A stretch of 29,970 nt of DNA from a virus, in the IMG/VR virus record IMGVR_UViG_3300047562_003823, positions 1-29,970 of that record. One strand, given 5' to 3'. The position numbers and the translations under genes were made by a program. This document shows, one piece after another, positions 2,700-28,373 of the stretch. Within the stretch, counting starts at the first letter, position 1. Each line of letters starts with the position of its first letter. The notes under the pieces are model-generated. The model did not search any database and was not told the DNA's origin. It worked only from the letters and a program-made list of their open reading frames with translations.

Positions 2700-5600
2700 A
2701 TGACAGAAACCAGAATCAAAATCAGTTCAATTGTCGAAAATCAACTTCCACAATTTGTAAAAGAAGAATTTCCTCTAGTATCAGAATTTTTATCTCAATA
2801 TTATACTTCCCTGGAAAATCAGGGAGGATCTATCGATTTACTTCAAAACATTGACCAATATATTAAGGTTGATTCCTTAACAAATTTGGTCGAATCAACA
2901 ACTTTGAGTTCTGATGTAACTTTTTTTGATTCTACAATAAATGTAACATCAACTGCAGGATTTCCAGACTCTTATGGTCTCATTTTAATTGATTCTGAAA
3001 TAATTACATATACTTCAAAAACCTCTACAACATTTGAAGGTTGTGTTCGCGGATTTAGTGGCGTCACTGCATATAAACCAAACGATGAATTAACTTTTTC
3101 AGAAAGTTTATCTCAAAGTCATTTATCTGGAGAAACTGTTCAAAATTTAAGCATTCTTTTCCTAAAAGAATTTTTAAACAAAGTAAAAAAGCAATTCACT
3201 CCTGGATTTGAAGGAAGAGAATTATACACTGAATTAAATGAAAGGATTTTTATTAAACAATCCATAGATTTTTATTCTTCAAAGGGTACAGATAATTCAT
3301 TTAAAATTTTATTTGGTGCGCTTTATGGTCAGAATGTAGAGATAATTCGCCCTAGAGATTATCTAATTCAACCTTCAGATGCGCAGTATAGAATTACATC
3401 CGATTTGGTTTTGCAAGCAGTAGAAGGAAACCCAGAAAATCTTGTAAACGGAACTCTCTATCAATATCAAAATGAAGATGAAACTGAGCAGTTAGCTCAG
3501 GGAACTATTACAAAGGTTGAAGAAATTAGAAGAGGTTCTGAGAGTTATTATCTAGTCAGTTTGGATGCAGATTATGATAAAGATATTCTGCCAATAGGAA
3601 CTGTTTATGGGCAATTTAAAATTCACCCCAAAACAAAAATCATATCTGATACTGTTTCTGCGTCTAGAACATTAGAGGTAGATTCTACCGTTGGATTTCC
3701 AAAAGAAAATGGAAAATTGAGGGTGGATTTGGAAAATGGTTCTTCTTTGGACATTTCTTATACATCCAAAACTTTAAATCAGTTTATTGGTTGTTCTGGC
3801 ATTAATCAGGATATTCCTCAAGGAACACATATTAAATTAGATTATTTTACTTATGGAAACTATAATGATGAAAAAATAACAGTAAGAGTTCTTGGTGTAT
3901 TGGCAGATTTGAACATACCGCCAAATACTCAGTTTTATTCTAAAGGCGATGTTATAAAAATAAAAACTTTAGGAAAAGATGCTAAAGATTTTAAGTCAAA
4001 TAATTGGTTCTTCAATATTCCTGTAGAGTATTCAGTTTCTAATATTTCAATTTCTGATGCATTTGATAGATCTTATATTGTTAATCTAAGTGAAGAACAT
4101 TCACTTAGAGTTGGGGATTCTGTATCTCTAATAAGTTCTTCTGATAATGAAAGTATTGGTAATATAATTTCCTTTAATAATACAAAATCAATAACCGTCC
4201 AGTTTGGTTCTGAAGGTTCAACACTTAATATTAACCAATCTTATATTATACGGAGAAGAATAAGTAAAGTAGATTCTGAAAATTACCCCTCAGTAAATCA
4301 ATACACCTCAAATGTTCAGAATGTTTACTCTGACAATGATGGATCTTTGTATGTTTCATCTCCGTCTCTTCCAACATATTTGAATAGAAAAATTAGAGTA
4401 AATGATAGATCTATTGTTTTTCCACCCAACAGTTCTACTCAAACAGTAGAACCGGATGATTATTCGGATTTAAGTAAGGGAACAACTCTGAACATTGGTA
4501 GACATGGATTTTATACTGGAGATGCTATTGTTTATAAACCACCTACTGAAAATTCCCTTGGAATTGCGGCCGGTGTATATTTTATTAAAAGAATAAGTGC
4601 AACAGAGGTAAAGTTAGCAAAAAGTAGAAATAATATTTTTTCTGAAAAATACATTTCATTTGATGCAACAATTAGAAATAATAAGTTTGAACTTCAAGAA
4701 TTTACATATAGGGATTTGAGTTCTAAGCTATTAGAATCTCAAAAATTAATTAGAAAAATTTCCAATCCATTGATTGATGGAAATACTTATGAAACTGAAC
4801 CCGGAACAACAGGAATTTTTATTAACGGTGTTGAACTTTTAAATTATAAATCAAAAGACAATATTTTTTATGGTCCGATTAACGATATAGTCGTTTCTTC
4901 CCCCGGAGAGGATTATGATGTATCTAATCCCCCAATTTTATCTATTAGAGACCCTAAAGGGTTTGGTGCAAAGGGACATTGTTCAATAATTGGTGGACTA
5001 GAAAGAATTGATATTTTAGACCCAGGATTTGATTATATAGAAGAACCAAAAATAGAAATTGAAGGTGGCAATGGATTTGGCGCATCAGCTAAAGTAAACT
5101 TAGTTAGTTTTGATTATTCTGCAGATTTCAATTCTATTTCTTCTGCGGAATTGGTGAAATTGAATCCGATAAATCAGATTGGATTTTCTACTTATCATAA
5201 GTTTAGGGATGCTGAAGAAGTTGTTTATATTACAAATGGACAAACTTCTATCAGTGGTCTATCTACAAATTCTTCATATTTTGTTTCTGTTAAGGATGAG
5301 TTTACTGTAAGTATACACAAATCTTTTGATGATGCAGTTTCTGGCATCAATACCATAAGACTCACTGCATATGGGTCTGGTGTACACGCATTTAAATCAA
5401 AAGATAAAAAGAAAAAAATAGGATCTATTTCTATAGAAAATAGAGGTCAAAATTATCAAAATAAATTAATTTTTGCGAAAACAAGTGGAATAAGTACCTC
5501 AGAAAATACAATTTATATTCCAAGTCATGGTTATTCTAGTGGAGAAATTGTAGTCTATAATGCTACTGAAAATCCAGCAGGAGGCCTATCGTCATCAAGA

Positions 5601-14600: not shown

Positions 14601-14735
14601 AGTTGGGGAAGAATTTTGACCCCAATAAGGTCAAATCCAAAAGAATTTACTTCATATGCAAATGTGGGAGGAATTACAACTTCACCAATTGTTCAAAGAT
14701 TTAATAGATTAAAATACCTAAATTATAATACATAA
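2700..14735 (+). CDS. Giant baseplate/tail structural protein, 4011 aa, in the gp7 position, with YHYH-type domain
   Basis: An uninterrupted 4011-codon frame between gp6 and gp8, where T4 encodes gp7 (1032 aa). The N-terminus (QLPQFVKEEFPLVSEFLSQYY, residues about 14-34, then DLLQNIDQYIKVDSLTNL) and the C-terminus (YGEYSWGRI to RFNRLKYLNYNT) look like cyanophage structural proteins. Residues about 1200-1375 resemble a YHYH domain (WAYDGNPIYGPYGY at 1258-1271, DEHNGR at 1322-1327). Residues about 2414-2477 hold GWNTETG...DSDYYQYFSYAL...LNHTAGFKKFG. Most of the rest consists of repeated beta-type modules: GY repeats, HG..TGD/YYV modules and EIITYTS modules, listed separately. It is probably a virion protein forming the wedge periphery or a fibre. 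Homology to gp7 is inferred from gene order, not shown. Confidence 0.93.
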   Translation: MTETRIKISSIVENQLPQFVKEEFPLVSEFLSQYYTSLENQGGSIDLLQNIDQYIKVDSLTNLVESTTLSSDVTFFDSTINVTSTAGFPDSYGLILIDSEIITYTSKTSTTFEGCVRGFSGVTAYKPNDELTFSESLSQSHLSGETVQNLSILFLKEFLNKVKKQFTPGFEGRELYTELNERIFIKQSIDFYSSKGTDNSFKILFGALYGQNVEIIRPRDYLIQPSDAQYRITSDLVLQAVEGNPENLVNGTLYQYQNEDETEQLAQGTITKVEEIRRGSESYYLVSLDADYDKDILPIGTVYGQFKIHPKTKIISDTVSASRTLEVDSTVGFPKENGKLRVDLENGSSLDISYTSKTLNQFIGCSGINQDIPQGTHIKLDYFTYGNYNDEKITVRVLGVLADLNIPPNTQFYSKGDVIKIKTLGKDAKDFKSNNWFFNIPVEYSVSNISISDAFDRSYIVNLSEEHSLRVGDSVSLISSSDNESIGNIISFNNTKSITVQFGSEGSTLNINQSYIIRRRISKVDSENYPSVNQYTSNVQNVYSDNDGSLYVSSPSLPTYLNRKIRVNDRSIVFPPNSSTQTVEPDDYSDLSKGTTLNIGRHGFYTGDAIVYKPPTENSLGIAAGVYFIKRISATEVKLAKSRNNIFSEKYISFDATIRNNKFELQEFTYRDLSSKLLESQKLIRKISNPLIDGNTYETEPGTTGIFINGVELLNYKSKDNIFYGPINDIVVSSPGEDYDVSNPPILSIRDPKGFGAKGHCSIIGGLERIDILDPGFDYIEEPKIEIEGGNGFGASAKVNLVSFDYSADFNSISSAELVKLNPINQIGFSTYHKFRDAEEVVYITNGQTSISGLSTNSSYFVSVKDEFTVSIHKSFDDAVSGINTIRLTAYGSGVHAFKSKDKKKKIGSISIENRGQNYQNKLIFAKTSGISTSENTIYIPSHGYSSGEIVVYNATENPAGGLSSSRSYYVTKVDDDKFKLSEIGSSVLGITTTFYYDTKQYVDLTSSGSGSHKFNYPEIKVTLSGRIGVSTISGQNFNATILPVFRGELQSVFVEDGGANYGTEEIINYNRQPFFELGSGSGASVTPIVLNGQIVNVLVNSPGAGYNSIPNIEIFGDGVGAILTPVISNGSLVDVKVIYGGIGYNQINTSIDIVPSGSGAKLEAKIKPWKINLVERLIQNSQITQDDGILSEGLNDNFGIEYTHAYAPRSLRSTVQATRFEDGEIKYVPDLQILDGRELSSDNPINGSGAHSPIIGWAYDGNPIYGPYGYSSKTGGRIKCMRSGYKLRSDLLGLVQAKQRPNYTNGFFIEDYTYVGDGDLDEHNGRFSVTPEYPNGVYAYFTTINPGDPERVDFPFGNYKRPVFPYAVGERYKSAKIDFNFNSDSNQDDIDINVTNWKRNITPYNIKSYDYLFNPNDIKEQNSVVRGVLSGFVNSVVAEDGGEDYQIGDKLVFDSEINYGTRAIVDSIKGKEVNSISVNTSTFNDVELYPFESQFIGFTTIPHNYLNNDLINFTGKFDYNKFGNIRISTNNLVLNSGIGSTEYTGLITYFNVSGNLNYPNIRENDIYKIGEEEIKILNVEQDKSRIRVIRNQNGTLGLTSYAPGSLLVEKTRKFRINFGISTSYGSNINKEIYFNPPESIGLGTVSGVGIVSTIYFSNPGVGETQIAIPTRSIYIKNHNLNSGDSLIYSSNGGDRISVSTDGISSFLLENESIVYATKISNDLIGISTVKIGLGSDGSFVSIGSTLQGSILYFTSVGVGETHSFKTNYDDIMVGNISKNTVTVLTSENHNLSLLDSVNVSVKSGISTTFIVKYNDYNRRLVINPRSFSSIDIINSIIVINNHNLYNGQKVIYTAANPATGLVDNGMYYIVVIDSNKVKLSNTYYQATKSNPDTVNITSSQPGTISPINPPLEFIKDKQIIFDLSDSSLSSLSNAISYSAFDFKFYTDSNFVEEFNKTPFSNVFEVTKTGRVGIDSTANVAITLNQDIPTNLHYKLVPINLDRISKNKKEILIDTEVVGFNKITLTESKYNGNYTVVGLSSTSFNYNIIEIPESVSYSQDIEYFVTKSTSTKGPINQIKVSNKGTGYFSLPENVSVTSNDGKNSLLNVKTLDIGKISGVEIQDIGFDYSIDYSVRPTAKFPSILILEPLSSLDYIGIASIGKNYNSAPSLLIFDGLTGEIVDDVELSYNLGDSRVTIIKNSNLFNHVTPKVLPINNSNGIKISNISFDINTKDVTVTLGSSFSSADDYPFEVGSKVLIEGISVGVGTTGIGYNSSSYNYSLFTLTAVDSNIGGSVGIVTYNLSEYIEDGEIPGNFAEKRSFGRIIPESYLPIFNPVLKKNDFYEGENVYSDSSSGKILKWDANNQNLKVSTVDDFEPDKFIIGETTGTVGIIREVLSVESDYRIDAKSDRRKGWNTETGFLNNDFQRVHDSDYYQYFSYALKTQKDFNTWNNPVSSLNHTAGFKKFGNLIIESEVTNSGISTAQNLGDFSGTADLTRFVDLNCVNDFDLARENNIIIDDKINSNEIYFNSRVIQDYIESIGNKVLVIDDVSGEFNSNPRPTEFSVVDSFDLNSLNFKKYFTLIQDKKFVNEKQFTLVTLLHDNTVGFLNQYGLESISSGHLGFYDFVVSGNSGNLLFYPVKPKFNDYNIEIFSISLTENLTGISDFDLGDSVHIHTQNSTIPDETSAATTIVGIASTYRSTKLLVQISSTDNSYHEVDEVTVIFDGSNVHLQEYGQITTDGFTDKSSAGFGTYYAYFDGSNVNVDLIPNDTTSKDYNVNTINVSLASTISSGIGTQVVGGSSLNSSAVSIASSSSPTESLIFSYSNSNYNCSYCVIGIEDKTNSEYQTSEFLIATNIFENECYTTEFGLLRTGSYLGDITAEVAGSNTEIYFTPSPNIDVDVKVFAVNVGLSEEPGQFIMENSGIEYDYSEYTGTDNDIKKEFDLKYNNVPIFERIFDASDSGVVSVNSNSIRIPNNFYVTGEEITYSYPQDGVSQPIGIATTFIAGIGTTDKLPSSLYVVRLSDLQIRVAASASEALKPIPNVLDINSVGIGSIHKFTAKNQNNKAIISIDNVIQTPIVSAAITTGLVREISFFDSQIYVEDIQQFYGGDLIKIDDEIVKITSVGVGSTNVLGVVRPWIGTGLSTHSSSSIITKIYGNYNIIGNKIYFSDAPFGEVPFVTSNPRPDELDFVGIKTGSSFSGRIFLRSGILNSDRESYSHNYIFDDISHDFNGTDSTFELKTNGSSVTGISTDNAIVLINDVFQGPDSVFFDSSYNLSENAGITTIKFVGSASSTKYDVNTASIPRGGIIQTVGSIQGFGYQPLVSAGGTAVVSSAGTIQSISIGNSGSGYRPQLQSIINVGVATLSLGTPNIEFIGTASVINGNIVSVAITNPGAGYTSSNPPIVIFDDPLSYSNIPLIYSSQSPAGVGTGAFIDIVVGQGSSVISFEFKNLGYGYKRGDILTIPTSGITGIPTDGSLSYSEFQLLVDTTQNDEFSAWTVGSLQVIDSIDSLFDGTRRIFPITIGGNQTTIRSNTLTKEEIQATLLVFINDILQVPGEGYTFSGGSTLRFSEAPKEGDKSKIIFYAGTANVDTQISDILETIKVGDTVRLIGDTRRTIENGRLVNEIISSDILTTNLYSGPGISEDEDLLRPITWCRQTEDLVINGQQVGKDRVLYEPYIQPSTNIIANVGVGSTVIFVESVKAFFDSEKEYTHDGTNEKPQNKISIISQDSLIPAFAEAVVSSSGTVSSITISNGGLGYIEAPSVIIAGPIGFGTTTSQNTARANATIANGVVTGIAVTLGGFGYSQSKPPIVLVESPSANYESIDSVSYEGDFGIITGVQTTSVGAATTGIIFDLFVPQDSILRDTDIVKVGIATTGVSGIQTGYYFTVNKSNIGAGLTSLNEFGAVVGVGTTFIDNIYQVASVSIAQTSVPGIGITYVTKVIVSVSGYNGLSGVGFSNFYGEYSWGRILTPIRSNPKEFTSYANVGGITTSPIVQRFNRLKYLNYNT
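2910..3100 (+). repeat. EIITYTS...RG module, copy in the 4011-aa protein (N-terminal)
   Basis: Residues about 71-134 read as strand-turn elements: a leading SSDVTFFDSTINV, then GFPDSYGLILIDSEIITYTS, then a CVRGFSG turn. The same order (short strand, GF with G, I-D/G-x-E-I/V-I-x-Y/I-T, then RG/RE turn and a T-x-A/S-x-x element) recurs at 3640-3830 (degenerate), 11955-12165, 22957-23220 and in gp15 at 27660-27875. Confidence 0.6.
4492..5745 (+). repeat. HGxxxGDxVxY...YYV module cluster (three copies)
   Basis: Three copies share the order: H-G/K element, G-E/D-x-V-Y, a G-L/I-A/S-x-G/S linker, Y-Y/F-x-V, and an end like GSGxHxF. They start near 4495 (GRHGFYTGDAIVY ... GVYFIKRI), 5187 (YHKFRDAEEVVY ... 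SSYFVSV ... GSGVHAF) and 5517 (SHGYSSGEIVVY ... RSYYVTKV ... GSGSHKF). Further copies are at 7715-7990, 8215-8450 and 11605-11885. The regular pattern suggests an autonomous beta domain. No function is assigned. Confidence 0.55.
4868..5115 (+). repeat. GY-repeat block 1 in the 4011-aa protein
   Basis: Two tandem copies in degenerate form: INDIVVSSPGEDYDVSNPP followed by GFGAKGHCSIIGG, then IDILDPGFDYIEEPKIEIEG followed by GFGASAKV. Pattern per copy: I-x-V-x-x-x-G-x-x-Y, x-x-P, a strand, then G-x-G-A-x-A. Confidence 0.65.
5776..6210 (+). repeat. GY-repeat block 2 in the 4011-aa protein
   Basis: At least three consecutive copies with GANYGTEE, GAGYNSIPNIEIFGDG and GIGYNQINTSIDI, each followed by a GSGA or GVGA element (GSGSGASVTP, GDGVGAILTP, GSGAKLEAKI). 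Spacing is about 38-40 residues, the same period as in gp14. Confidence 0.75.
6240..6830 (+). other. YHYH-type domain within the 4011-aa protein
   Basis: WAYDGNPIYGPYGY (bases 6471-6512) is the recognisable core of the YHYH domain, a family seen in cyanophage structural proteins and in bacterial secreted proteins. The second family motif is present as DEHNGR followed by TPEYPNGVYAYFTT, where the usual YHYH tetrapeptide reads YAYF (residues 1339-1342). The preceding HSPIIG segment also fits. The biochemical function of the domain is not known to me. Confidence 0.8.
6990..7135 (+). repeat. GY-repeat block 3 (single degenerate copy)
   Basis: VNSVVAEDGGEDYQIGDKLVF followed by EINYGTRAIVDSI and VNSISV. 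The layout is one GY-repeat copy with the GSG turn replaced by GGED. Confidence 0.5.
8903..9240 (+). repeat. GY-repeat block 4 in the 4011-aa protein
   Basis: Three degenerate copies: INQIKVSNKGTGYFSLPENV, then ISGVEIQDIGFDYSIDYSVRP, then IGIASIGKNYNSAPSLLIFDG. The G-x-x-Y-x-x-x-P core is kept while the Ala-rich connector has drifted. Confidence 0.55.
12613..13095 (+). repeat. GY-repeat block 5 in the 4011-aa protein
   Basis: Four GY cores: GFGYQPLVSAGG (near 12653), GSGYRPQLQS (near 12740), GAGYTSSNPPIVIFDD (near 12882) and GYGYKRGDILTIP (near 13062), linked by segments such as SAGTIQSISIGN and VINGNIVSVAITN. This is the best preserved block in this protein together with 13885-14165. Confidence 0.75.
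13885..14165 (+). repeat. GY-repeat block 6 in the 4011-aa protein
   Basis: Two clear copies: AEAVVSSSGTVSSITISN + GGLGYIEAPSVIIAG, and ARANATIANGVVTGIAVT + LGGFGYSQSKPPIVLVE. These are very close in layout to the copies in gp14. Confidence 0.75.
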
Positions 14736-16308: not shown

Positions 16309-19300
16309 ATGCCACAGGAAACTAATCTCAATGTCTCTCCATATTTTGATGACTTTGATGTAGATAAAAATTATTATAAGGTTTTATTTAAACCAGGTTA
16401 TCCAATTCAGGCAAGAGAATTGACAACTTTACAGTCAATTCTCCAAAATCAAGTAGAACAATTTGGAAATCATATTTTTAAAGAGGGATCTGTTGTAATT
16501 CCTGGGCAACTTTCTTATGATAATCCATTTTATGCAGTAGAAGTAGAGTCCACTTTTAATGGGAATCCCATATCTTTATATTTTAATCAATTATTGGGAA
16601 AAACTATTAGAGGAACTGATAGCGGAGTTTCTGCTAAAGTAGTTTATGTACTTGATAATGTAAATTCGGAAAGAGGAAATTATACACTATACCTTCAATA
16701 TCTGGAAAGTGGTGGAGAGAATTTTAATAATAATGTTTTCAACGATGGAGAAACAATAACCACAGAAAATGAGATTACCTTTGGCAATTTTACAATCCAA
16801 CCTGGACAAGGAATTTGTAATACTATTGCAACCAATTCAACCTCTGAAGGTTCTTCTGTAAAAATTGCATCTGGTGTCTATTTTGTAAGGGGTGTTTTTG
16901 CTAGAGTACTTGACCAAAGAATTATTCTTGACCAATACAGTACAACACCTTCTTATAGAGTTGGTTTTAATGTAATTGAAAAAATTGTGTCCTCTGATGA
17001 GGACGAAAGCTTATTTGATAATGCCAGGGGATTTTCAAACTATGCTGCCCCAGGTGCAGATAGATTTCAAATCGAATTGGAATTGTCTAAAGTTGGAATT
17101 GAAGAGGACGTAAATAACTTTGTTGAGATTCTTAGAGTTTTAAATGGTGTTCCTCAATTTTTCAATAGAAACACCCAATATAGTTTAATTAGAGATGAAC
17201 TTGCAAGAAGAACTGCAGATACTAACGGTGATTATTATGTAAAACCATTTACTTTGTTTGTTCAGGATAGTTTAAATGATAGAGTTATAAGTAATGGAAT
17301 CTACTTTGATGGACAAACTACAGTTAATGGAAATACTCCATCTGAGGACCAGATGGTTTATCAAATTGGTCCTGGAAAAGCATATGTAAATGGATATGAC
17401 GTTGAGAGTATTGCGCCCAAACTTTTAGATGTACCGAAACCAAGAACAACAAAGACTTTAAATAGGCAACTTATTCAATATAATGCCGGTAGTCTTTTTA
17501 CTTTAAATAATGCGTATGGGTCTGCTTCTATAGGACTCGGAACTACACTCTATGTGAGTTTGATGGATTCTCGCAAAGGTAGTTCACCTGAAGTTGCAGC
17601 AGGTAGTACCATTGGTATTGCAAGGGTTTATGATTTTATTCCAGAATCTAGTTACATTGATAACACTAGTAAGTTAAGTCTCAGATTGTTTGATATTCAA
17701 ACATTCACAAATATTGGACTATCAACATCAATTACACAATCACTTCCAGCTTTTATTCAAGGTAAAAAAAGTAATGCTGGTGGATATTTGCGAACTGCAG
17801 TAAATAATTCTAATGAATTGGTATTATACCAAGTATCTGGTAAATTTTTAGAAAATGAACCAATCACTATAAATGGAATTGATAATGGCAGACTTATCAA
17901 TAGTGTAAAAGATTATACAATATCTGATATTAAATCGATATATTCACAAACTGGCATATCAACTTTTAGCGCAGATTTAGTTCTAGATTCTGGATTCTTA
18001 TTAGCACCAACAGGAACTAATTTTACAATTAGTGGAAGTTCGGGGGGAATTAGTACAGTTTCTTCCGGACTGGGGACTAATTTCGTAAATAAAATTATTG
18101 TTGGTGATATTATTTCATATCCAAATCCAAATGTTGGTGGGGATATTATTTACAACAAAGTAAATTCTGTTTCTGCAGGAGGAACTAATTTTACTATTTC
18201 TGCAGTTGAAAGTATTTCTGGTATTTGTTCCGGAAATCTCCCAGAAAGTGATGTAATAGTTACTAATATCATAAAAGCAACTCCATCTTCATATAGTCAA
18301 GATAGTTCTTTATTGACAAGATTGAATAGGGAAAATGTTTCATCTATCTCACTTGAAGAAAATGAAATCGTTCAAAGGAGATTTTTCCCCAACCAAGCTT
18401 TTTCTCAAAGTTCTATAACTTTATCAATTCCAGAATCTGATGTTGATGTTTTCTTTGATTCTTTCGATGAAGATAGATTTGTAATTGCCTATTCGGATGG
18501 TTCTGTAGAACCTTTACGTAGAGACAAATACAATATTAGTTTGACTGGAAAGCAATTGACTTTTAATGGATTAACAAAGTCAAGTGGAATTGCTGATGTC
18601 ATTGCAACGGTTAGGAACTATGGCCCAAATTCTAAAATTAAGAAGCTAAATAAGGTCAATACTTTAATAGTAGGTAATTCTAAATTAGCATCATCTGGTA
18701 TTGGAACGACTACTTTGAATGATGGACTAACATACAGTCAAGTTTATGGAACAAGAGTTCAAGATCAAGAAATATGTCTAAATGTTCCAGATGTATTAAA
18801 CGTTCTTGCAGTCTACGAGTCTTCTTCTATTGCAGACCCAATCTTACCCTCACTGAAATTAACTTCATTCACTGGTCCAACAAATAACAATCAAGACTTT
18901 GTTGTTGGGGAGTATATTACTGGAAAAACTTCAGGGGCTGTTGCTATAGTAGTTAATAGAATATCAACAGACACTTTAGAATATGCCTATCTAAATACAA
19001 ATCAATTTACTGAAAATGAAGTTGTAGTTGGTAAGGAATCGACCACTGAAGCACTGGTTCTCGAAAAAAATCTTGGTGACAAGAATATAACACAAAACTT
19101 TACTTTTGACAGCGGACAACGACAGCAATATTACGATTATGGACGTATTGCTAGAAAAAGAAATGTTGTCGAACCTTCCAAAAAGATAAAAATAGTTTTT
19201 CAAAATTATACTATAGATTCCAGTGATACTGGAGAGTTTATTACTGCAAATAGTTATCTCAACGTAGATTTTAAAACTGAAGTTCCTTATTTTGATGGAA

Positions 19301-22300
19301 GAAGACTTACCGATTTTATTGATATAAGACCCAGAGTTGCTCCATATACTCTATCATCAAAATCTCCATTTGAATTCGAATCTCGTATATTCACCAACGC
19401 AGGACAATACTCGCAATATGTTCTTGCTCCTGATGAAAATATTGTTTTAAATTATTCTTATTATGTTGGTAGAATTGATATGATATTTTTAAATCAGGAT
19501 GGAAGGTTTGAAGTAGTTTCAGGAAAACCTGATGATAATCCAATAGCTCCACCTTTTAAAGATAATGCTTTTGATATTGCAATAGTAAATCTCCCACCAT
19601 ATCTCTATAATGTAAAAAATGCCATCGTAAGAATGGCTCAACATAAGAGATATAGAATGTCTGATATTTCTTTGCTTGAAGACAGAATTCAAAGAGTTGA
19701 AGAATTTACAACATTGTCAGCATTGGAAAATAAAACTGAAAACTTTATTATAAAAGATGCCGAAACTGGATTAGATAGATTTAAGTGTGGATTTTTTGTC
19801 GATGACTTTAAAACACATCTTTACCACGATCTTCAAAATCCAAGTTTTAAATCCAGTATTGATAAAGATAGAAAACATCTAAGACCACTACATTATACTA
19901 CATCTTTAGATTTGCAACTTGGTTCTGAAGCAATTTCTGGAATTGGGCAGACATTTTCGCCAAATAAAGATCAAAGTTATGTAACCGATTTGGGTTCTCC
20001 TGGAATTAGAAAAACCGGAGACTTAATCACACTAGACTATAATGAAGTCGTTTATGACCAACAACTTTTGGCAACAAAAACAGAAAGCGTTACTGCTTTT
20101 CTAGTTAGATACTGGAATGGATTTTTAACTTTAAATCCACCTATTGATACTTGGATTGATGAAAAGGCCATTACTACTACAAGTTTTAATGAGGTTAAAA
20201 CAACAGTAGATCCTTTGCCAGATCAAAATATTACTATTGTAAATAATACATCGGAAGACAAAGTTGTATATACAAATCCACCAATTGCACAAAATGGCGA
20301 TCGTCCATTTGATTGGTTAGGAAATGCAAGAAATACAATTGCGCAAAATGCATTGGGTGCTGGTCAAATAAATCCAGGAATACCCGGCAGTGCTACAATT
20401 ATTGGTACTGGTGGATGGTTTAGAAATGGTCGGAGCGTTGCTGCTGGAGAAGGAAATGAAAACAGAACTATTGAAATTAGAGATGGAAATACTATAAGAA
20501 TTAATGGTCTTCATTGGACTAGAAGCGACAAGGCACTTCTGGAAAGATTTGTTCCACCTGATGTTGCGGAAAGATTTCTTGTTAGAATGGTTGATCAAGC
20601 TGGATTTGGTGGAGGAAGAGGTTTAGGAGGATTCCTCGATTTTACTCCAGGACAAGTCAATGAGACAAGACAAACTACAACTACTACACAATCATCAAGT
20701 AATACAGTAACTACTTTTACTCCAGAAAAAATTATTGAAACAGATACTACTTCAGAATCATTATCAAATTATACAGAACCTGTAAGATATCTTAGAAGTA
20801 GAAATATTGAATTCGATGCTAGAGCACTAAAACCAAGAACGGCATTTTTCACATTTTTCCAAGGTATTGATGTAAAAGATTATATCATACCAAAACTCCT
20901 AGAAATTGAAATGATTTCAGGACAATTCCAAATTGGGGAGACTGTTGAGAGTGATCCCAACTTCACTCAAGCAAAAATAAAATTCAGATTGTGTAAACCA
21001 AATCACAAAACAGGACCTTTTGATGGTTCTAACCCACCATTTGTAACAAATCCCGTTCCTATTATTGATTTTGCCACTGGTGCAGTTTTACCTGCAAATC
21101 CAGATTCTCTTCCAAAGCCAGATGTATTCAGATTAAATCCATACACTCAGCAACCAATTCCAGAAACATATACTCCATCTTCAACATTCCTTAACGTTGA
21201 TACTAGAGCTCTTGAACTACCTTCTGAAGTTGAATTTTATGGGCAAGTTTTACCAAACATGACATTAATTGGTAGAAGTTCTGGTGCTGTGGCAAGAGTT
21301 ACTAATACTCGTTTAATTTCGGACAATTATGGAACATTGATAGGATCATTGTTTATTCCAGATCCAAATACAGTTGGAAATCCAAGATGGATAAATGGCG
21401 AAAACACTTTTACAGTAATTGATACTGAGACTCTCAACAGAGTTAATTTGGTAGAGTTTATTGCAAATAGCAGAATCAATGAAAGTAGTGCTGAAGCGCC
21501 ATTTACTTCAAGTGGTATTGTAAATATCGCAGAAACAAACATACTTACTACTAGAAATATTACGATTATCCCCCCAAGTCGAATTAATACAACAACAATT
21601 ACTAATAACACAATCAATACTACTACAATTACACAAACCGTTCAACCAGGTGCTGTAAATATTCAGCAACCATACGATCCACTTGCACAATCTTTCTATG
21701 TTTTTGAAGATACTGGAGTATTTTTAACTTCCGTAGAAGTTTGGTTTGAGACTAAGGATGAAGATAATATACCAGTCACTTTGCAAATTAGACCTCTTGT
21801 TGCTGGTGTTCCAAGTAACATGGTAGTTCCGTTCTCCGAAGTAACTTTGACTCCGGACCAAATAAATCTTTCTGCAGATGCAACTATTCCCACTACTTTT
21901 AGATTCCCATCACCAATCTATCTTCAGGGACCACAACAGCAGACAGTTAGACAAGCACCAATCGCAAGTCAAACTCAGGCAGAATATGCAATTGTTTTAA
22001 TATCAAACAGTCCTAACTATAGAGTATTTGTAACTGAACTTGGGCAAAATAATATTCTTCCTGGAGATATCTTTATAGGTGGAACTCAAGGTGCTTATAA
22101 TGGAACAGGTGTAAGAGTCAATAAGCAACCAACTCTAGGAAGTTTATTCAAATCTCAAAACGGAACTGTTTGGTCTCCTGCACAACTTGAAGATCTTAAG
22201 TATAGAATTAATAGAGCAGACTTTGTAACCGAAGGTTTGGTAAGATTCTTCAATCCAAAACTTTCTTTGGGTAATAAAAAAGTTAGTGTTACTGGACCCA

Positions 22301-24231
22301 ATCAAATTCAAACTATATCAAAAAGGATTCTTGTTGGACTTGGTTCAACTGGATATGACTCAAATATTATAGTTCCTGGAGTAACAATTAAACAAAATTC
22401 TGCATCATCAACACTGATTGGGATTGGTGGAAGTATAACTGTAGGAACTGGTGTAACTGTAAGTAATGTTGGATTTGGATATACGCCAACAGCAGGTACT
22501 CAAATATTTAATGATGTACTCCTAACTACCGAAACTGGTTATGGGCAAGGAGCCACTGCAGATATAACAGTAATTTCTGGATCTATCAATTCTGTGAATA
22601 TTACTGATGGTGGAATGGGATATCAAATTGGAGATTCTCTATTAATCCCCAATATTGGACAAAATGTTGGATTTGGCGGAAAGGTTATTGTCACTGAAAT
22701 AAATTCAAGAAATGCATTTGTTCTTGATGAAGTTCAAGGAACATTTAATACGGGAACATCACTTGACTATGTAAATTCTTCAGGAATTACCACGTCTATT
22801 GGAAATGGAATAACCGTATCAATGATAAATCCAGACCAATATTATGATGGATTGCACCTGAAGATATATCAACAAAATCATTGTATGCATTCATCCGAAA
22901 ATTATGTAAAAATAAGTGAAATGAGACCCCTTAATAGTGAGGTTAATTCAAGAACAACTGCAACCTTGGAAAGTACTGAAGTAAATGCAATTGATTTGAT
23001 TTCCACAGAAGGTTTTGATACCTTTGAGGGTGTTGGAGTAAGTACTTCCAACCCAGGATATGTTATCATCGGAAGTGAGATTATTTCGTATACTGGAGTG
23101 TCTGGAAATTCTCTTACTTCTTTGACAAGAGAAATTGATGGAACCCAAGCAATTTCATACAATACCGGTGTCTACGTTTATAAGTATGAATTAAACGGAG
23201 TTTCTTTGAGAAGAATTAATAAAATTCACAATTTTGCAGAAGTTGACAAAAATGTACATCCAATTGATTTGGATAGTTATCACATTAAGATTGATATGGA
23301 TTCTTCTGATTTTGAGGGCGCTCCAATTGGTTCAGATAGAACCAATGATCTTTATTTTAACTCCACAATTCAAACTGGAGAATCTGGAACTGTAATTTCA
23401 AATAATATTCAGTACGAGTCAATTACTCCCCAAATTGCACATATTATTCCGGCAAAAACAAACATAACGACACGTATCAGGACAGTCACTGGTACAAGTA
23501 TTGGTGGAAATGAAAAATCATTTGTTGATAGTGGATTTGAAGAAATTTCTATCAATAATACAACTTACTTTACCACACCAAAAATTATATGCTCTGAAAT
23601 TAATGAATCAAGATTCATCGATGAAGTTCCTGGAAATCGTTCGTTGACAATGGAATTTTTAATGCAGTCCGAAGATTCTAGAGTTTCTCCAGTTATTGAC
23701 ACAATTAAGACATCTGTAATTACAACTTCCAATTTAATTAATAATCCTATTGGAATTCAAACAGCATCTCTTTATGCCGATGATGATTTTACTAGAAGTT
23801 TGTTTAATGATAAGCATAATACCATTTATATCTCAAAACCTGTTAGACTTAAACTCCCAGCAAATTCTCTAAAAGTTCTATTGTCAGCCAGTAGAAATAA
23901 CTTGAATGATGTTAGAGTTCTGTATCAATTGTTTAGAGATGATGCACCTGAAGCTTCACAAAACTATGAATTTTTCCCAGGATATTCTAATTATAGAGTT
24001 GATGGGGTTGGAATAAAGAGGGTAATTGATCCTTCAAGAAATGATGGTTCTTCTGATTCTGAAGTAAAGGAAACTTCAGACAGATCATTTAAAGATTATG
24101 AATATAGCGTGGATGATCTTCCTGATTTTAATGCGTTTGCAATTAAGATTGTAATGGCGTCTTCAAACCAAGCAACTCCACCAATTATCTCTTCATTGAG
24201 AGCAATTGCAACAGTAAGACCTAGAATTTGA
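16309..24231 (+). CDS. Large virion structural protein with N-terminal DUF4815-type region (2640 aa), probable baseplate periphery/tail fibre
   Basis: The N-terminus (NVSPYFDDFDVDKNYYKVLF, GYPIQARELTTLQSILQNQVEQFG, IFKEGSVVIPG, residues about 7-67) is characteristic of the DUF4815 family of phage structural proteins. Residues about 1490-1530 hold VRYLRSRNIEFDAR...FFTFFQGIDVKDYI. Residues about 1790-2010 hold a conserved tail-protein domain (DPLAQSFYVFEDTGVF, VTLQIRPLVAGVPSN, later LGSLFKSQNGTVWSP). A glycine-rich insert lies at about 1334-1448, threonine-rich linkers near 1455-1475 and 1755-1780, GY repeats near 2040-2120 and an EIISYT module near 2217-2304. It occupies the position of T4 genes 9-12 and wac, so a role as wedge periphery, pin or fibre is likely; the exact equivalent is not determined. 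Confidence 0.92.
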   Translation: MPQETNLNVSPYFDDFDVDKNYYKVLFKPGYPIQARELTTLQSILQNQVEQFGNHIFKEGSVVIPGQLSYDNPFYAVEVESTFNGNPISLYFNQLLGKTIRGTDSGVSAKVVYVLDNVNSERGNYTLYLQYLESGGENFNNNVFNDGETITTENEITFGNFTIQPGQGICNTIATNSTSEGSSVKIASGVYFVRGVFARVLDQRIILDQYSTTPSYRVGFNVIEKIVSSDEDESLFDNARGFSNYAAPGADRFQIELELSKVGIEEDVNNFVEILRVLNGVPQFFNRNTQYSLIRDELARRTADTNGDYYVKPFTLFVQDSLNDRVISNGIYFDGQTTVNGNTPSEDQMVYQIGPGKAYVNGYDVESIAPKLLDVPKPRTTKTLNRQLIQYNAGSLFTLNNAYGSASIGLGTTLYVSLMDSRKGSSPEVAAGSTIGIARVYDFIPESSYIDNTSKLSLRLFDIQTFTNIGLSTSITQSLPAFIQGKKSNAGGYLRTAVNNSNELVLYQVSGKFLENEPITINGIDNGRLINSVKDYTISDIKSIYSQTGISTFSADLVLDSGFLLAPTGTNFTISGSSGGISTVSSGLGTNFVNKIIVGDIISYPNPNVGGDIIYNKVNSVSAGGTNFTISAVESISGICSGNLPESDVIVTNIIKATPSSYSQDSSLLTRLNRENVSSISLEENEIVQRRFFPNQAFSQSSITLSIPESDVDVFFDSFDEDRFVIAYSDGSVEPLRRDKYNISLTGKQLTFNGLTKSSGIADVIATVRNYGPNSKIKKLNKVNTLIVGNSKLASSGIGTTTLNDGLTYSQVYGTRVQDQEICLNVPDVLNVLAVYESSSIADPILPSLKLTSFTGPTNNNQDFVVGEYITGKTSGAVAIVVNRISTDTLEYAYLNTNQFTENEVVVGKESTTEALVLEKNLGDKNITQNFTFDSGQRQQYYDYGRIARKRNVVEPSKKIKIVFQNYTIDSSDTGEFITANSYLNVDFKTEVPYFDGRRLTDFIDIRPRVAPYTLSSKSPFEFESRIFTNAGQYSQYVLAPDENIVLNYSYYVGRIDMIFLNQDGRFEVVSGKPDDNPIAPPFKDNAFDIAIVNLPPYLYNVKNAIVRMAQHKRYRMSDISLLEDRIQRVEEFTTLSALENKTENFIIKDAETGLDRFKCGFFVDDFKTHLYHDLQNPSFKSSIDKDRKHLRPLHYTTSLDLQLGSEAISGIGQTFSPNKDQSYVTDLGSPGIRKTGDLITLDYNEVVYDQQLLATKTESVTAFLVRYWNGFLTLNPPIDTWIDEKAITTTSFNEVKTTVDPLPDQNITIVNNTSEDKVVYTNPPIAQNGDRPFDWLGNARNTIAQNALGAGQINPGIPGSATIIGTGGWFRNGRSVAAGEGNENRTIEIRDGNTIRINGLHWTRSDKALLERFVPPDVAERFLVRMVDQAGFGGGRGLGGFLDFTPGQVNETRQTTTTTQSSSNTVTTFTPEKIIETDTTSESLSNYTEPVRYLRSRNIEFDARALKPRTAFFTFFQGIDVKDYIIPKLLEIEMISGQFQIGETVESDPNFTQAKIKFRLCKPNHKTGPFDGSNPPFVTNPVPIIDFATGAVLPANPDSLPKPDVFRLNPYTQQPIPETYTPSSTFLNVDTRALELPSEVEFYGQVLPNMTLIGRSSGAVARVTNTRLISDNYGTLIGSLFIPDPNTVGNPRWINGENTFTVIDTETLNRVNLVEFIANSRINESSAEAPFTSSGIVNIAETNILTTRNITIIPPSRINTTTITNNTINTTTITQTVQPGAVNIQQPYDPLAQSFYVFEDTGVFLTSVEVWFETKDEDNIPVTLQIRPLVAGVPSNMVVPFSEVTLTPDQINLSADATIPTTFRFPSPIYLQGPQQQTVRQAPIASQTQAEYAIVLISNSPNYRVFVTELGQNNILPGDIFIGGTQGAYNGTGVRVNKQPTLGSLFKSQNGTVWSPAQLEDLKYRINRADFVTEGLVRFFNPKLSLGNKKVSVTGPNQIQTISKRILVGLGSTGYDSNIIVPGVTIKQNSASSTLIGIGGSITVGTGVTVSNVGFGYTPTAGTQIFNDVLLTTETGYGQGATADITVISGSINSVNITDGGMGYQIGDSLLIPNIGQNVGFGGKVIVTEINSRNAFVLDEVQGTFNTGTSLDYVNSSGITTSIGNGITVSMINPDQYYDGLHLKIYQQNHCMHSSENYVKISEMRPLNSEVNSRTTATLESTEVNAIDLISTEGFDTFEGVGVSTSNPGYVIIGSEIISYTGVSGNSLTSLTREIDGTQAISYNTGVYVYKYELNGVSLRRINKIHNFAEVDKNVHPIDLDSYHIKIDMDSSDFEGAPIGSDRTNDLYFNSTIQTGESGTVISNNIQYESITPQIAHIIPAKTNITTRIRTVTGTSIGGNEKSFVDSGFEEISINNTTYFTTPKIICSEINESRFIDEVPGNRSLTMEFLMQSEDSRVSPVIDTIKTSVITTSNLINNPIGIQTASLYADDDFTRSLFNDKHNTIYISKPVRLKLPANSLKVLLSASRNNLNDVRVLYQLFRDDAPEASQNYEFFPGYSNYRVDGVGIKRVIDPSRNDGSSDSEVKETSDRSFKDYEYSVDDLPDFNAFAIKIVMASSNQATPPIISSLRAIATVRPRI
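20308..20652 (+). other. Glycine-rich insert in the 2640-aa protein
   Basis: Residues about 1334-1448 differ from their beta-rich surroundings: FDWLGNARNTIAQNALGAG, GIPGSATIIGTGGWFRNG, a charged helical stretch SDKALLERFVPPDVAERFLV, then GFGGGRGLGGFLDFTPG. It is followed directly by a threonine-rich linker. It may be a separately folding insert or a flexible surface element. I do not recognise it. Confidence 0.45.
22426..22680 (+). repeat. GY-repeat block in the 2640-aa protein
   Basis: Two copies: GVTVSNVGFGYTPTAGTQIF followed by GYGQGATADITVISG, then INSVNITDGGMGYQIGDSLLI followed by GFGGKVIVTEI. The same core and spacing occur in the 4011-residue protein and in gp14. Confidence 0.75.
22957..23220 (+). 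repeat. EIISYT module in the 2640-aa protein
   Basis: ATLESTEVNAIDLISTEGFD, then PGYVIIGSEIISYTGV, then LTSLTREIDGTQAISYNTGVYVY. The order of elements matches the copy at 2910-3100 and the C-terminal extension of gp15. Confidence 0.6.
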
Positions 24232-24457: not shown

Positions 24458-24617
24458 TAAAATTGTGTTAGAAAACATATCCAAATTATTTGAATATGAG
24501 AAACTTTCTAGAGATATAGATAGTATAGATGATCTTGATACTTTAAGAAATTTTGCCAAATCTTATATCAAATTGTATCTAAGTCAGCAAGAAGTAATTT
24601 CTAATTTAGGAATCTAA
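24447..24617 (+). CDS. Very small helical protein of unknown function (56 aa)
   Basis: A 56-residue frame (MDPDKIVLENISKLFEYEKL ... SQQEVISNLGI) fills the only gap between the 74-residue gene and gp13. It overlaps the former by 11 bases and the latter by one base (TAATG), and has its own GAGGA site, so it is very likely real although short. The protein is charged and predicted helical, with EYEKLSRDIDSIDDLDTLRNFAKSYIKLYL spanning residues 16-45. I have the impression that similar small proteins occur at this site in other cyanophages, but could not check. The SR and KLYL elements are loosely reminiscent of NblA, too weak to assign. Confidence 0.75.
   Translation: MDPDKIVLENISKLFEYEKLSRDIDSIDDLDTLRNFAKSYIKLYLSQQEVISNLGI
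24608..24611 (+). promoter_or_regulatory. Ribosome binding site for gp13
   Basis: AGGA lies 5 bases before the gp13 ATG at 24617, supporting that start, which overlaps the preceding stop codon as TAATG. Confidence 0.55.
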
Positions 24618-25462
24618 TGGCACAACCATCTACTCGGCAAGAACTTATCGATTATTGCAAGAGGAAATTAGGTTTTCCTGTTTTAGAAATTAACGTTGCC
24701 GATGAGCAAATTGAAGACTTGGTTGATGATGCTGTTCAGTTTTTCCAAGAACGTCATTTTGATGGTGTTTATCCAACATTTTATAAGTATAAAATAACTC
24801 AAGATGATATAGATAGGGGAAGAGCAAGAGGTTCAACCTCTCCAGTTGGAATTGTAACAACAACTGCAACAGCAAATATTGTTGGTACTGCAACCACTTT
24901 TGCTTATGAAGAAAATAGTAATTATCTTCAAGTTCCTCCCAATGTTATTGGGGTAAATAAAATTTTTACTTTTGATGGCGCAAATACCATCACTAGTAAT
25001 ATGTTCAGTGTGAAATACCAATTATTTTTAAATGATATTTACTATTGGGGTTCTATTGAACTTTTAAGTTATGCTATGGTTAAAACTTATTTGGAAGATT
25101 TAGATTTCTTGCTCAATACCCAAAAGCAAATTCGTTTTAACAAAAGACAAGATAGATTGTATTTGGATATTGACTGGGCAACGGTCAGAGAAGGTCAATA
25201 TTTTATAATTGATTGCTATTCGACTTTAGATCCTAACGATTATTCTAAAGTTTGGAATGATTCTTTCTTAAAACCATATCTAACTGCCCTCATCAAAAAA
25301 CAATGGGGACAAAATATGATGAAATTTACCGGTGTAAAATTGCCTGGCGGGGTTGAGTTGAATGGTAGGCAAATGTTTGAGGATGGTCAAAGAGAAATAG
25401 ATATGCTAATGGAAAAAATGTCCAATACTTATGAACTTCCACCTTTAGACATGATCGGTTAA
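24617..25462 (+). CDS. gp13: Neck protein gp13 (head completion)
   Basis: 281 residues (T4 gp13: 309). In T4, gp13 and gp14 form the neck that seals the filled head and accepts the tail. The N-terminus (RQELIDYCKRKLGFPVLEINVADEQIEDLVDDAVQFFQERH, residues about 7-47) is a highly characteristic gp13 stretch, followed by the conserved YPTFYKYKIT. The middle (YQLFLNDIYYWGSIELLSY, then TQKQIRFNKRQDRLYLDIDW) and the end (YLTALIKKQWGQNMMKFTGVKLPGGVELNG, near residues 227-256) also fit. It is preceded by an overlapping small gene and followed 7 bases later by gp14. Unlike gp14, it lacks GY repeats. Confidence 0.96.
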   Translation: MAQPSTRQELIDYCKRKLGFPVLEINVADEQIEDLVDDAVQFFQERHFDGVYPTFYKYKITQDDIDRGRARGSTSPVGIVTTTATANIVGTATTFAYEENSNYLQVPPNVIGVNKIFTFDGANTITSNMFSVKYQLFLNDIYYWGSIELLSYAMVKTYLEDLDFLLNTQKQIRFNKRQDRLYLDIDWATVREGQYFIIDCYSTLDPNDYSKVWNDSFLKPYLTALIKKQWGQNMMKFTGVKLPGGVELNGRQMFEDGQREIDMLMEKMSNTYELPPLDMIG

Positions 25463-25469
25463 AAAGCAT

Positions 25470-26888
25470 ATGCTCAATCCATTCTTTTTACAAGGGTCAG
25501 AAACAGAACAAGGTCTTCTCCAAGACTTAATAAATGAGCAGTTGAGAATGTATGGAGTTGATGTTTATTATCTCCCAAGAAAATATATCACAGAGAAAAC
25601 AGTAATAAGAGAACTCATAGAATCGGAATTTGATATTGCTTATCCAATCGAAGCATATGTCAATAGTTATGATGGATATTCCGATAATCCAACTATTTTA
25701 TCAAAATTTGGAATTCAAGCTCTAAATGAAATTTCATTGACAATCTCTAGAGAGAGATATGAAAACTATATTGCACCTCTAATTAAAAATCAATTAAATA
25801 TAAAAATTTCACAAAGACCTAAGGAAGGTGATTTAATTTATTTCCCACTTGGCGATCGTCTTTTTGAAATTAAATATGTAGAACATGAGAAACCTTTTTA
25901 CCAATTGCAAGGAAATTACACCTATGAACTGAGGTGTGAACTCTTTAGATATGAGGATGAACTCATTAATACCAGTATTGATGAAATTGATGACCTTATT
26001 TCTGGAGCAGATTCGACAGATCCTGAGAAGAATCCAATTGGAAATCTTATCAACCTTACAATGTCTGGGGTTGGAGTAACTGCTTCTGCGGTTGCATCAA
26101 TTGTTGATGGTGGAGTAAGATTTGTCACTGTTACTAATCGTGGTGGTGGATATACAAGTATTCCAACTGTTGGGTTTACTTCGGCGCCTAGTGGAGGAAA
26201 AACTGCAACTGCAGTTGCAGAAATGATCGGCGGAATTGTAGTATGCAATGATAATGTAGACCCAAAAGCAAAATCAGTACAAAATGTATTGATTACTAAT
26301 GCAGGTTTTGGATATACAGTAGCACCTAGCGTTAGATTTATTGGCGGTGGTGGTAGTGGAGCAAGGGCAACAGCAACAATTGGCGATGGAATTGTTGGAG
26401 TAATTACTGTGACCAATGGTGGTTCTGGATATATAACTCCACCAGTAATTACATTTACTGGTGCTTCATCAGTATCTGCTGCAGCAACAGCAGTCATTTC
26501 TTCATCTGGTTCAATATCTGCAATTAATATTATAAATGCTGGTCTTGGATATACACAGACTCCAACAATTACTATTGGAAATCCATTTTTAACATCGACA
26601 GGAAACTTTGTTTTTAATGAGATTGTAACTGGTTCTCAGAGTGGAGTTACTGCAAGAGTAAAATCTTGGAATTCTGTTACTAGAGTTCTTCAAGTATCCA
26701 ATATTACTGGAGATTTTATTAAAGGTGAAAATATTGTAGGCTCTACTTCAAATGCATCTCATTATCTATTGTCTATTGATGATCTTCCATCAATTTCCAA
26801 AGATGGATTTGCTGCAAATGATGAAATTGAGGAAGAAGCATTGGATATTATAGATTTTGATGAAAGTAATCCGTTCGGAATGCCGTAA
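25470..26888 (+). CDS. gp14: Neck protein gp14 with an inserted GY-repeat array
   Basis: 472 residues against 256 in T4. Residues 1-185 are a clear gp14 neck protein (FFLQGSETEQGLLQDLINEQLRMYGVDVYYLPRKYITE, then YPIEAYVNSYDGYSDNPTILSKFG, then GDLIYFPLGDRLFEIKYVE and FYQLQGNYTYELRCELFRYE). After an acidic segment, residues about 203-372 form an array of four GY repeats (cores GGGYTSIP, GFGYTVAP, GSGYITPP, GLGYTQTP). A third module (VTGSQSGVTARVKSW...RVLQVSNITGDF) follows at about 378-425, and the protein ends with an acidic tail (NDEIEEEALDIIDFDE). The added mass probably projects from the neck. The next gene follows after a late promoter box. Confidence 0.94.
   Translation: MLNPFFLQGSETEQGLLQDLINEQLRMYGVDVYYLPRKYITEKTVIRELIESEFDIAYPIEAYVNSYDGYSDNPTILSKFGIQALNEISLTISRERYENYIAPLIKNQLNIKISQRPKEGDLIYFPLGDRLFEIKYVEHEKPFYQLQGNYTYELRCELFRYEDELINTSIDEIDDLISGADSTDPEKNPIGNLINLTMSGVGVTASAVASIVDGGVRFVTVTNRGGGYTSIPTVGFTSAPSGGKTATAVAEMIGGIVVCNDNVDPKAKSVQNVLITNAGFGYTVAPSVRFIGGGGSGARATATIGDGIVGVITVTNGGSGYITPPVITFTGASSVSAAATAVISSSGSISAINIINAGLGYTQTPTITIGNPFLTSTGNFVFNEIVTGSQSGVTARVKSWNSVTRVLQVSNITGDFIKGENIVGSTSNASHYLLSIDDLPSISKDGFAANDEIEEEALDIIDFDESNPFGMP
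26070..26590 (+). repeat. Four-copy GY-repeat array inside gp14
   Basis: The NxGxGY cores start at 26136 (NRGGGYTS), 26298 (NAGFGYTV), 26415 (NGGSGYIT) and 26535 (NAGLGYTQ), giving steps of 54, 39 and 40 residues. Each copy has V-x-x-I/V-x-V/I-T-N, the GY core, x-x-P-x-V/I-x-F/I, then a Gly/Ala connector with A-T-A. The DNA of the cores is similar but not identical, indicating old duplication. Confidence 0.85.
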
Positions 26889-26933: not shown

Positions 26934-27935
26934 ATGTTTGAGTATTTTTACAACGAAATTTTAAGAAGAACTGTAATCGCTTTTGGTTCTTTATTTAATG
27001 AAATTACAATTAAGCATACCAATAATTCAGACCAAGTTGTCAGTTCTATTAAAGTTCCTCTCGCATATGGTCCTACTCAAAAATTTCTTGCGAGGTTGAA
27101 CCAATCACCAAACTTAAATAAACCAGTTCAAATTACATTACCAAGAATGTCTTTTGAATTTACTGGACTGACTTATGATGCCGGAAGAAAATCAACAACT
27201 ACTCAATATTTTACTTCAAAATCGGTAGAAGATAGTAAGGAAATAAAAAAAGCATATCTCCCAGTTCCATACAATATGCAGTTTGAGTTGAGTATTATGT
27301 CAAAACTCAACGATGATGCACTTCAGATTATAGAGCAAATTCTCCCATACTTTCAACCAGCATATACAATGACTGTTGAATTGGTTGACCAAATTAATGA
27401 AAAAAGAGACGTTCCTGTTGTCTTAGAAAACATCACAATGCAGGATGATTATGAGGGAGACTTCACTACAAGAAGGGTATTGATTTATACTCTAAGATTT
27501 ACTGCAAAAACTTATCTATTTGGTCCAGTATCTTCTGCAACAAAAGATATTATCAAAAAGTCTACTATCAGTTATATTGCAGGAGATCTTATTGCAAATC
27601 CAACAAGAGAAGTTGTATATTCTGCTGAACCAAGAGCGATTAAAAACTATACAGGTTCGATTATTACAAACTTATCAAAAGACATAACCACGTCAGATAC
27701 TTTGATTTTAGTTGATGACGCCAGTTCTATTTCTGTAAATACATATCTGGACTTGGAAGGTGAAGAAGTTTATGTCACTGCAAAGTCTGGCAATTCCATT
27801 ACAGTTGAGAGAGGAAAAGATGATACAACTATAACATCTCACTTAGGAGGTTCTCCAGTTAAATCAATTACCAGTCAAGATAATGCACTGGTAGAAGAGG
27901 GTGATGATTTTGGATTTAGTGGAAGTATATTTTGA
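26934..27935 (+). CDS. gp15: Tail completion and sheath stabiliser protein gp15
   Basis: 333 residues (T4 gp15: 272). In T4 this protein caps the tail at the neck end and stabilises the last sheath ring. The N-terminus (MFEYFYNEILRRTVIAFGSL, then KVPLAYGPTQKFLARL near residues 41-56) and the central region (TLPRMSFEFTGLTYDAGRK, YLPVPYNMQFELSIMSKLNDDALQIIEQILPYF) are characteristic, ending with YTLRFTAKTYLFGP near residue 198. Residues about 243-312 form an extra C-terminal module (DITTSDTLILVDDASSI, YLDLEGEEVYVT, ITVERGKDDTTITSHLGG) similar to ones in the two giant proteins. Gene order between gp14 and gp16 agrees with T4. Confidence 0.93.
   Translation: MFEYFYNEILRRTVIAFGSLFNEITIKHTNNSDQVVSSIKVPLAYGPTQKFLARLNQSPNLNKPVQITLPRMSFEFTGLTYDAGRKSTTTQYFTSKSVEDSKEIKKAYLPVPYNMQFELSIMSKLNDDALQIIEQILPYFQPAYTMTVELVDQINEKRDVPVVLENITMQDDYEGDFTTRRVLIYTLRFTAKTYLFGPVSSATKDIIKKSTISYIAGDLIANPTREVVYSAEPRAIKNYTGSIITNLSKDITTSDTLILVDDASSISVNTYLDLEGEEVYVTAKSGNSITVERGKDDTTITSHLGGSPVKSITSQDNALVEEGDDFGFSGSIF
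27660..27875 (+). repeat. EVYVTA...RG module, C-terminal extension of gp15
   Basis: This segment matches the order of elements of the EIITYTS module: a DTLILVDDASSI strand pair, then LDLEGEEVYVTAKS, a strand ending in ERG, then TITSH. It falls beyond the length of T4 gp15, so it looks like an appended domain. Confidence 0.6.
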
Positions 27936-27941: not shown

Positions 27942-28373
27942 ATGAAAATGTCTAAAAAATTCGACAAATTAAATGAAACTTTTAATGTTGATGGAGAAAT
28001 TGTACCAGTTAAAGCAGAGCAAGTCTCGGGTGAGATAGAAAAATATGCCACAACTGCTGATGATATTAAAAAAGATTATGAGTATGCAAGAGGAAATTTG
28101 TATTCATTGGTAGAAAAGGGGCAAGAAGCAATTAATGGAATTCTTGAGTTGGCACAAGAAAGTGAAATGCCAAGAGCTTATGAAGTGGCAGGTCAATTAA
28201 TTAAGAACACGAGTGAAATTGCCGAAAAACTTATGGCACTTCATAAACTCAAAAAAGATGTTGAGGAAGAAAAACAAAAAGGACCAACAACTGTTAATAA
28301 TGCACTTTTTGTAGGATCTACTGCAGAATTAGCAAAATTACTTAAGCAACAAACTGAGGATGAAAACGTTTAA
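27942..28373 (+). CDS. gp16: Terminase small subunit gp16
   Basis: 143 residues (T4 gp16: 164). The T4 protein forms a ring that recognises DNA and regulates the large terminase gp17 at the start of packaging. The sequence TADDIKKDYEYARGNLYSLVEKGQEAINGILELAQESEMPRAYEVAGQLIKN (residues about 42-93) is the typical helical gp16 core, followed by a coiled-coil region (EIAEKLMALHKLKKDVEEEKQ). Two in-frame starts, ATG 27942 and ATG 27948, are possible; the second is better spaced from a weak GAG at 27938-27940. The last 14 bases overlap the 51-residue gene. Confidence 0.92.
   Translation: MKMSKKFDKLNETFNVDGEIVPVKAEQVSGEIEKYATTADDIKKDYEYARGNLYSLVEKGQEAINGILELAQESEMPRAYEVAGQLIKNTSEIAEKLMALHKLKKDVEEEKQKGPTTVNNALFVGSTAELAKLLKQQTEDENV

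Follow-up and report, generated by a model that had tools for sequence, protein, structure and literature searches.

A variable GY beta-repeat array inserted in the neck protein gp14 of a T4-like cyanophage, a candidate neck decoration

In bacteriophage T4, the neck gate protein gp14 has a barrel that ends at residue 177, and the segment that follows, residues 178-256, is disordered or flexible in the isolated neck and makes extensive contacts with gp15 in the virion, after tail joining (PMC12270204, 2025 preprint). T4 decorates its neck with the whiskers and collar of fibritin (wac), a separate trimeric fibre protein bound to domain III of gp13, residues 190-239 (PMC12270204). A review lists wac among the genes missing from cyanomyoviruses and notes one whiskered isolate (PMC2984593). 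Another cyanophage neck decoration is known from the Anabaena myophage A-1(L), whose neck fibres (gp80-82) include a carbohydrate-binding-type module and are built of separate bead-chain proteins on a 15-fold adaptor (PMC10966104).

Here, we describe a gp14 encoded in a stretch of 29,970 nucleotides, hereafter the window (positions 1 to 29,970 of IMG/VR virus record IMGVR_UViG_3300047562_003823). This protein shares with T4 gp14 (9mkb, 9lu5; PF11649) a homologous gate core, the gene order gp13-gp14-gp15-gp16 and probably the same C-terminal docking tail. T4 gp14, however, has 256 aa and lacks both the GY units and the further beta domain, of the type at residues 373-438, that are found in the window protein. 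The array would be a neck decoration, as fibritin is, but one carried by gp14 instead of by gp13, whose fibritin-binding segment is largely missing in the window, and one inserted in the gate protein rather than assembled from separate fibres as in A-1(L). Both gp14 and its family, PHROG 460, are already known, and positions 221-300 of the PHROG 460 profile already match the GY module; the annotation of the family is head closure only, and its description does not include the array, the copy range, the two insertion sites or the nested LamG domain. A literature search, with subscription papers mostly outside it, likewise returned no paper that describes the array, the range of its copy number, the two sites of insertion or the lectin-like domain nested in it.

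The gp14 gene and its inserted array

The gp14 neck or head-closure (Hc2) gene (25470..26888, + strand, 472 aa) was assigned from its open reading frame and from PHROG, Pfam and PDB matches, and it lies between gp13 (24617-25462) and gp15 (26934-27935), with the small terminase subunit at 27942-28373. The whole protein is a member of PHROG 460, head closure Hc2 (5.6e-131), and residues 2-177 match Pfam PF11649, T4_neck-protein (5.9e-29; 101.7 bits, curated cut-off 25). Its best PDB match by sequence is T4 gp14 (1.3e-27), and the T4 gp14 structures 9mkb (1.2e-10) and 9lu5 rank at the top in Foldseek. The conserved core, residues 1-177 (25470..26000, +), comprises an N-terminal arm, a helix and the gate beta-barrel as in T4 gp14, as delimited from PF11649, Foldseek and the T4 anatomy (PMC12270204).

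Beyond the core, a linker and beta cap at residues 178-217 (26001..26120, +), with low pLDDT over 174-191 and strands from 194, leads into an array of GY units. We define the GY module as a unit of about 40 residues in beta strands with the motif [VI].N.G.GYT..P.V.F..., and the window protein conforms to this definition in both its profile matches and the strands of its AlphaFold2 models. The motifs lie at residues 225, 279, 318 and 358, a spacing of 54, 39 and 40 that agrees with the period of 39-54 residues noted in a preliminary description of this DNA. A profile HMM trained on 142 non-redundant GY units from the gp14 family detects exactly four copies, at 34 to 51 bits each: residues 218-259 (26121..26246, +; 48.3 bits), 272-312 (26283..26405, +; 48.5 bits), 311-349 (26400..26516, +; 34.2 bits) and 351-393, the end of which overlaps the next domain (26520..26648, +; 51.3 bits). 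The preliminary description, which had placed a four-copy array at 26070-26590 (residues 201-374), was thus right in copy number and coordinates. Not one unit was detected by the HMM in 200 shuffles of residues 186-432, which rules out a chance repeat or artefact as the origin of the array. Against Pfam and NCBIfam the array matches no named domain, and the Pfam scan found no LamG domain (PF13385) in the window gp14. An antisense open frame of 191 aa (25922-26497, -) spans the array; it is probably not a gene and would be a by-product of biased codon content in the repeats.

The beta-rich insert runs on past the GY units into a distinct domain, missed in the preliminary description, at residues 373-438 (26586..26783, +), which was recognized by the motif block FNEIVTG...A.VKSW...L.V.N..G.F..GE.I.G and by PHROG 460 and 708 matches. 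The same type of domain is present in the gp14 of P-SSM4, P-TIM40, S-SZBM1 and Sf-CH11, there in the absence of GY units. It is followed by a conserved acidic C-tail, residues 443-470 (26796..26879, +; tail HMM 46.3 bits), which ends in NPFG, and we presume this tail to be equivalent to the gp15-docking arm of T4. The tail HMM also scores the insert-free, 217-aa gp14 of Sinorhizobium phage phiM12 at 16.2 bits, against 6.6 for the best of 250 shuffles; its score with T4-like gp14, 3.6 bits, falls within the shuffle range and is not significant. Because the conserved tail lies beyond the array, and is found in insert-free phiM12 gp14 as well, the GY array is an internal insert in a core-plus-tail protein, and a C-terminal extension is ruled out. 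The earlier view that a T4-sized gp14 would be nearing completion at residue 185 was mistaken, since T4 gp14 runs about 80 residues further, in the arm that docks on gp15 (PMC12270204).

Structure prediction of the repeats alone had been proposed as a check, and AlphaFold2 modelled residues 190-438 confidently as an all-beta fold with roughly three strands per unit (pLDDT 90.7, pTM 0.77). In the full-length model, residues 194-437 reach a pLDDT of about 81-95, with the exception of a loop around 250-270 and of the final residues; the core was modelled poorly (about 40-77) and the linker, 174-191, with low confidence. The gp14 array thus has a confidently predicted beta fold. Searched against the PDB, it had no match by sequence, nor by Foldseek at E <= 0.001.

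Variation of the array and occurrence of the GY module

Relatives were compared in a set of 250 gp14 sequences fetched by similarity, a sample biased towards the query clades, in which GY copy numbers of 0, 4, 5, 6, 7, 8 and 9 and lengths of 217-1109 aa were recorded. A comparison of copy number among cyanophage gp14s had been suggested in the preliminary description, and in our cyanophage sample the array does vary, from 0 to 9 units in proteins of 291 to 1109 aa. P-SSM4 (308 aa) and P-TIM40 (291 aa) have no GY units, S-RIM2 (390 aa) and S-MbCM6 (486 aa) have two, and P-SSM2 (470 aa), S-SM2 (481 aa) and Bellamy (483 aa) have four, the S-SM2 protein being 64% identical to the window gp14 over its full length. 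Five units are present in Sf-FS3 (763 aa) and S-SSM6a (762 aa), and eight in S-CAM9 (657 aa) and S-8S53 (644 aa).

The array is therefore not universal in cyanophages, as P-SSM4, P-TIM40, S-SZBM1, Sf-CH11 and S-CRM01 are without any unit, and it must be dispensable, since the gp14 of P-SSM4, P-TIM40 and S-SZBM1 does without it. Of T4-like phages outside the cyanophages, five were examined, E. coli phage G53, Sinorhizobium phage phiM12, Klebsiella phage MDA2066, Vibrio phage K490 and T4 (PDB sequence); none of them carries GY units, and universality was ruled out for these five. The alternative raised at the outset, that such an array is simply usual in T4-like gp14, thus holds within the cyanophage clade of the window and fails in those five phages. 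Judged by these sequences, the window array, a variable feature and probable decoration of the neck, is typical of its lineage and common there, not exceptional.

On a tree of the gp14 core alone, a quick search with long branches outside the cyanophages, at least two changes are needed to account for the presence of GY units, with support of 95 for the S-RIM2/S-MbCM6 pair and 96 for the clade of the window. In that clade the 373-438 domain comes after the array; S-RIM2 and S-MbCM6 instead have the array inside a domain of this type, between FTVGEEIVG and AEVKSW. These comparisons indicate that gp14 gained GY units at least twice, at two different sites. The array also evolves faster than the core, with mean identities of 0.71 and 0.89, respectively, in the closest bin. 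In the Sf-FS3 gp14 (L087:1495-3783), a LamG/concanavalin-like domain (PF13385) is nested in the array with a score above the Pfam cut-off (2.9e-7), and the S-SSM6a gp14 (L257:2477-4762) has one just under the cut-off (7.6e-6). Three giant variants (L217, L222 and L245; 1021-1109 aa) combine eight or nine units with a long internal non-GY insert, for which no significant Pfam model was found in the two that were scanned, L217 and L245. In the Synechococcus phage S-SRM01, an HNH-domain protein is annotated right after gp14 (L261:2024-2551), the position of gp15 in other phages.

The preliminary description had also placed the same module in baseplate proteins of this phage. This is borne out for the gp7-like baseplate wedge protein (2700-14735, 4011 aa), which has GY units near residues 1098, 3388 and 3751 and a stretch, 3731-3825, that matches the PHROG 460 profile (6.8e-19). 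For gp8 the likeness is weak (residues 203-269 against the PHROG 460 profile, 8.9e-5), and a GY motif search in that protein gave no match. The gp7-like protein also carries a YHYH domain at residues 1248-1346. Among the PHROGs, the module is found in those of baseplate wedge proteins, tail fibre proteins and virion structural proteins, and the array fold matches 56 predicted viral structures in BFVD at E <= 0.001, including cyanophage neck, baseplate-wedge-initiator, LamG and YHYH proteins. PHROGs 708, 701 and 2885 and the cyanophage GY, LamG and YHYH proteins of BFVD share the beta-repeat module with the window gp14, but they are baseplate or fibre-like proteins and not part of the head-closure ring. 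The fold also matches a predicted protein of Sylvanvirus, which we take to be a giant virus (BFVD A0A3G5AH46, 2.7e-6). A single-protein scan of bacterial genomes returned six Verrucomicrobia loci with similarity to the array, and the two read closely are multi-domain proteins with tandem GY units, combined in one (L265) with leucine-rich-like repeats and in the other (L268) with beta-helix-like and Ig-like sequence, these neighbours being named by eye. The two proteins suggest that the GY module is not phage-specific.

Neck partners and the possible role of the array

The partner of gp14, the head-tail adaptor gp13 (Ad2; 24617..25462, +), was assigned by a PHROG match and alignments. Neither the window gp13 nor the other aligned cyanophage gp13s, that of the array-free P-SSM4 among them, have an equivalent of residues 192-224 of T4-type gp13, so that, by alignment, the window gp13 is without most of the fibritin-binding domain III. 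The preliminary description had seen no wac gene in the window, and we found no Pfam or PHROG match to fibritin among the ten main forward-strand open reading frames of this genome fragment; the absence of whiskers is independently supported by the loss of most of the T4 fibritin-binding segment from gp13. In the T4 gene order wac lies just upstream of gp13, a place taken in the window by a 2640-aa DUF4815 protein (16309-24231; PHROG 358, function not known). The gp13 of S-CAM9 (L086:371-1489) and S-CRM01 (L256:1312-2454) is about 100 residues longer than that of the window, the extra stretch being an insert near window gp13 residues 70-95; gp13 is thus another neck protein that takes inserts. 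The tail sheath stabiliser gp15 (26934..27935, +; PF16724 and alignment) is the expected docking partner of the gp14 C-tail, and in the alignment it bears a C-terminal beta-like insert, TTSDTLILVDDAS...GNSITVERG, which is also present in P-SSM4, S-SM2, S-CAM9 and Sf-FS3 and absent from T4-like, phiM12 and P-SSM2 gp15.

The position of the cyanophage gp14 insert corresponds to the T4 gp14 segment 178-256. Because it falls in the gp15-docking segment and is large, the insert should sit outside the neck, exposed on the surface; six copies of about 250 extra residues, or up to roughly 900 in relatives, cannot fit in the DNA channel. Of the earlier proposal that the array forms neck projections, the parts that stood are that the insert is absent from T4 gp14, variable and confidently beta, and we infer the surface projection itself from position and size. 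We favour a model in which a beta-repeat decoration has been spliced into a T4-type gate protein between the channel-forming barrel and the gp15-docking C-tail. The six gp14 copies would then surround the gp14/gp15 junction with beta arms that face outward in a ring, or with a collar, and the array, as a rapidly changing accessory surface, would most likely make weak contacts with glycans of the cell surface or with other particles. Where phages have lost the fibritin whiskers of T4, the neck would be occupied by such arms, which would not be the primary receptor-binding device. Taken whole, the statement that the array is an exposed, variable beta-repeat neck decoration, most likely making weak accessory contacts with glycans or particles, is on balance probable, its exposure part being stronger than its ligand part. 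Host or polysaccharide contact by the window array is only suggested, by the LamG domain nested in two relatives, and the failure of a carbohydrate-binding module on the A-1(L) neck fibre to bind its host (PMC10966104) counts against a glycan role.

Three other explanations were weighed. The repeats could form a structural collar, wrapped around gp15 and the upper end of the sheath, that makes the joint of head and tail stronger and has no ligand beyond the virion itself. In favour, the insert lies directly before the segment whose T4 equivalent docks on gp15 (PMC12270204), the gp15 of the same phage bears its additional beta-like insert, and the array is confidently predicted to fold as a single unit; against it, the copy number ranges from 0 to 9, with giant arrays, on a conserved core, and the gp15 insert and GY units can occur one without the other, P-SSM2 having four units and no insert and P-SSM4 the insert and no units. 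We consider such a collar unlikely. If the gp14 arms instead replaced the T4 whiskers, holding or folding against the phage's own fibres, one would expect the lack of whiskers to predict the array, but P-SSM4, which is array-free, also lacks the gp13 segment, and the fibres may be out of reach for a compact arm of some 250 residues. This substitution, to which the missing wac match in the window, the missing fibritin-binding part of gp13 and the folding of the A-1(L) tail fibres back to the capsid beside separate neck fibres (PMC10966104) lend some weight, is in our judgement quite improbable.

The array might, finally, have no selected role in gp14, GY units being copied by recombination among virion genes and tolerated in permissive loops. 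Their presence in gp7 and many other virion proteins and their two different entry sites in gp14 accord with passive spread, against which stand the retention of in-frame arrays of at least four units across most of a deep clade and the conserved glycine, proline and tyrosine positions, which suggest a maintained fold; we hold it to be very unlikely. The decoration reading can be carried further, to a whisker-less cyanophage connector that serves as an evolvable display platform, on which GY arrays with as many as nine units, inserted repeatedly into gp14 and in some cases bearing a lectin-like domain, form a six-armed glycan- or particle-binding collar in a fold without a solved structure, and this we regard as a tentative and rather doubtful extension.

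Few parts of a phage are under tighter constraint than the neck gate, and still many cyanophages have in it a large insert whose length differs from phage to phage. Marine phages have the repeat fold in baseplate and fibre-like proteins too, and our PDB searches gave no match to it, so that one structure would annotate many proteins. If exposed, the array would explain the neck decoration of T4-like cyanophages that lack wac and would count among the surface features of viruses that are abundant in the ocean.
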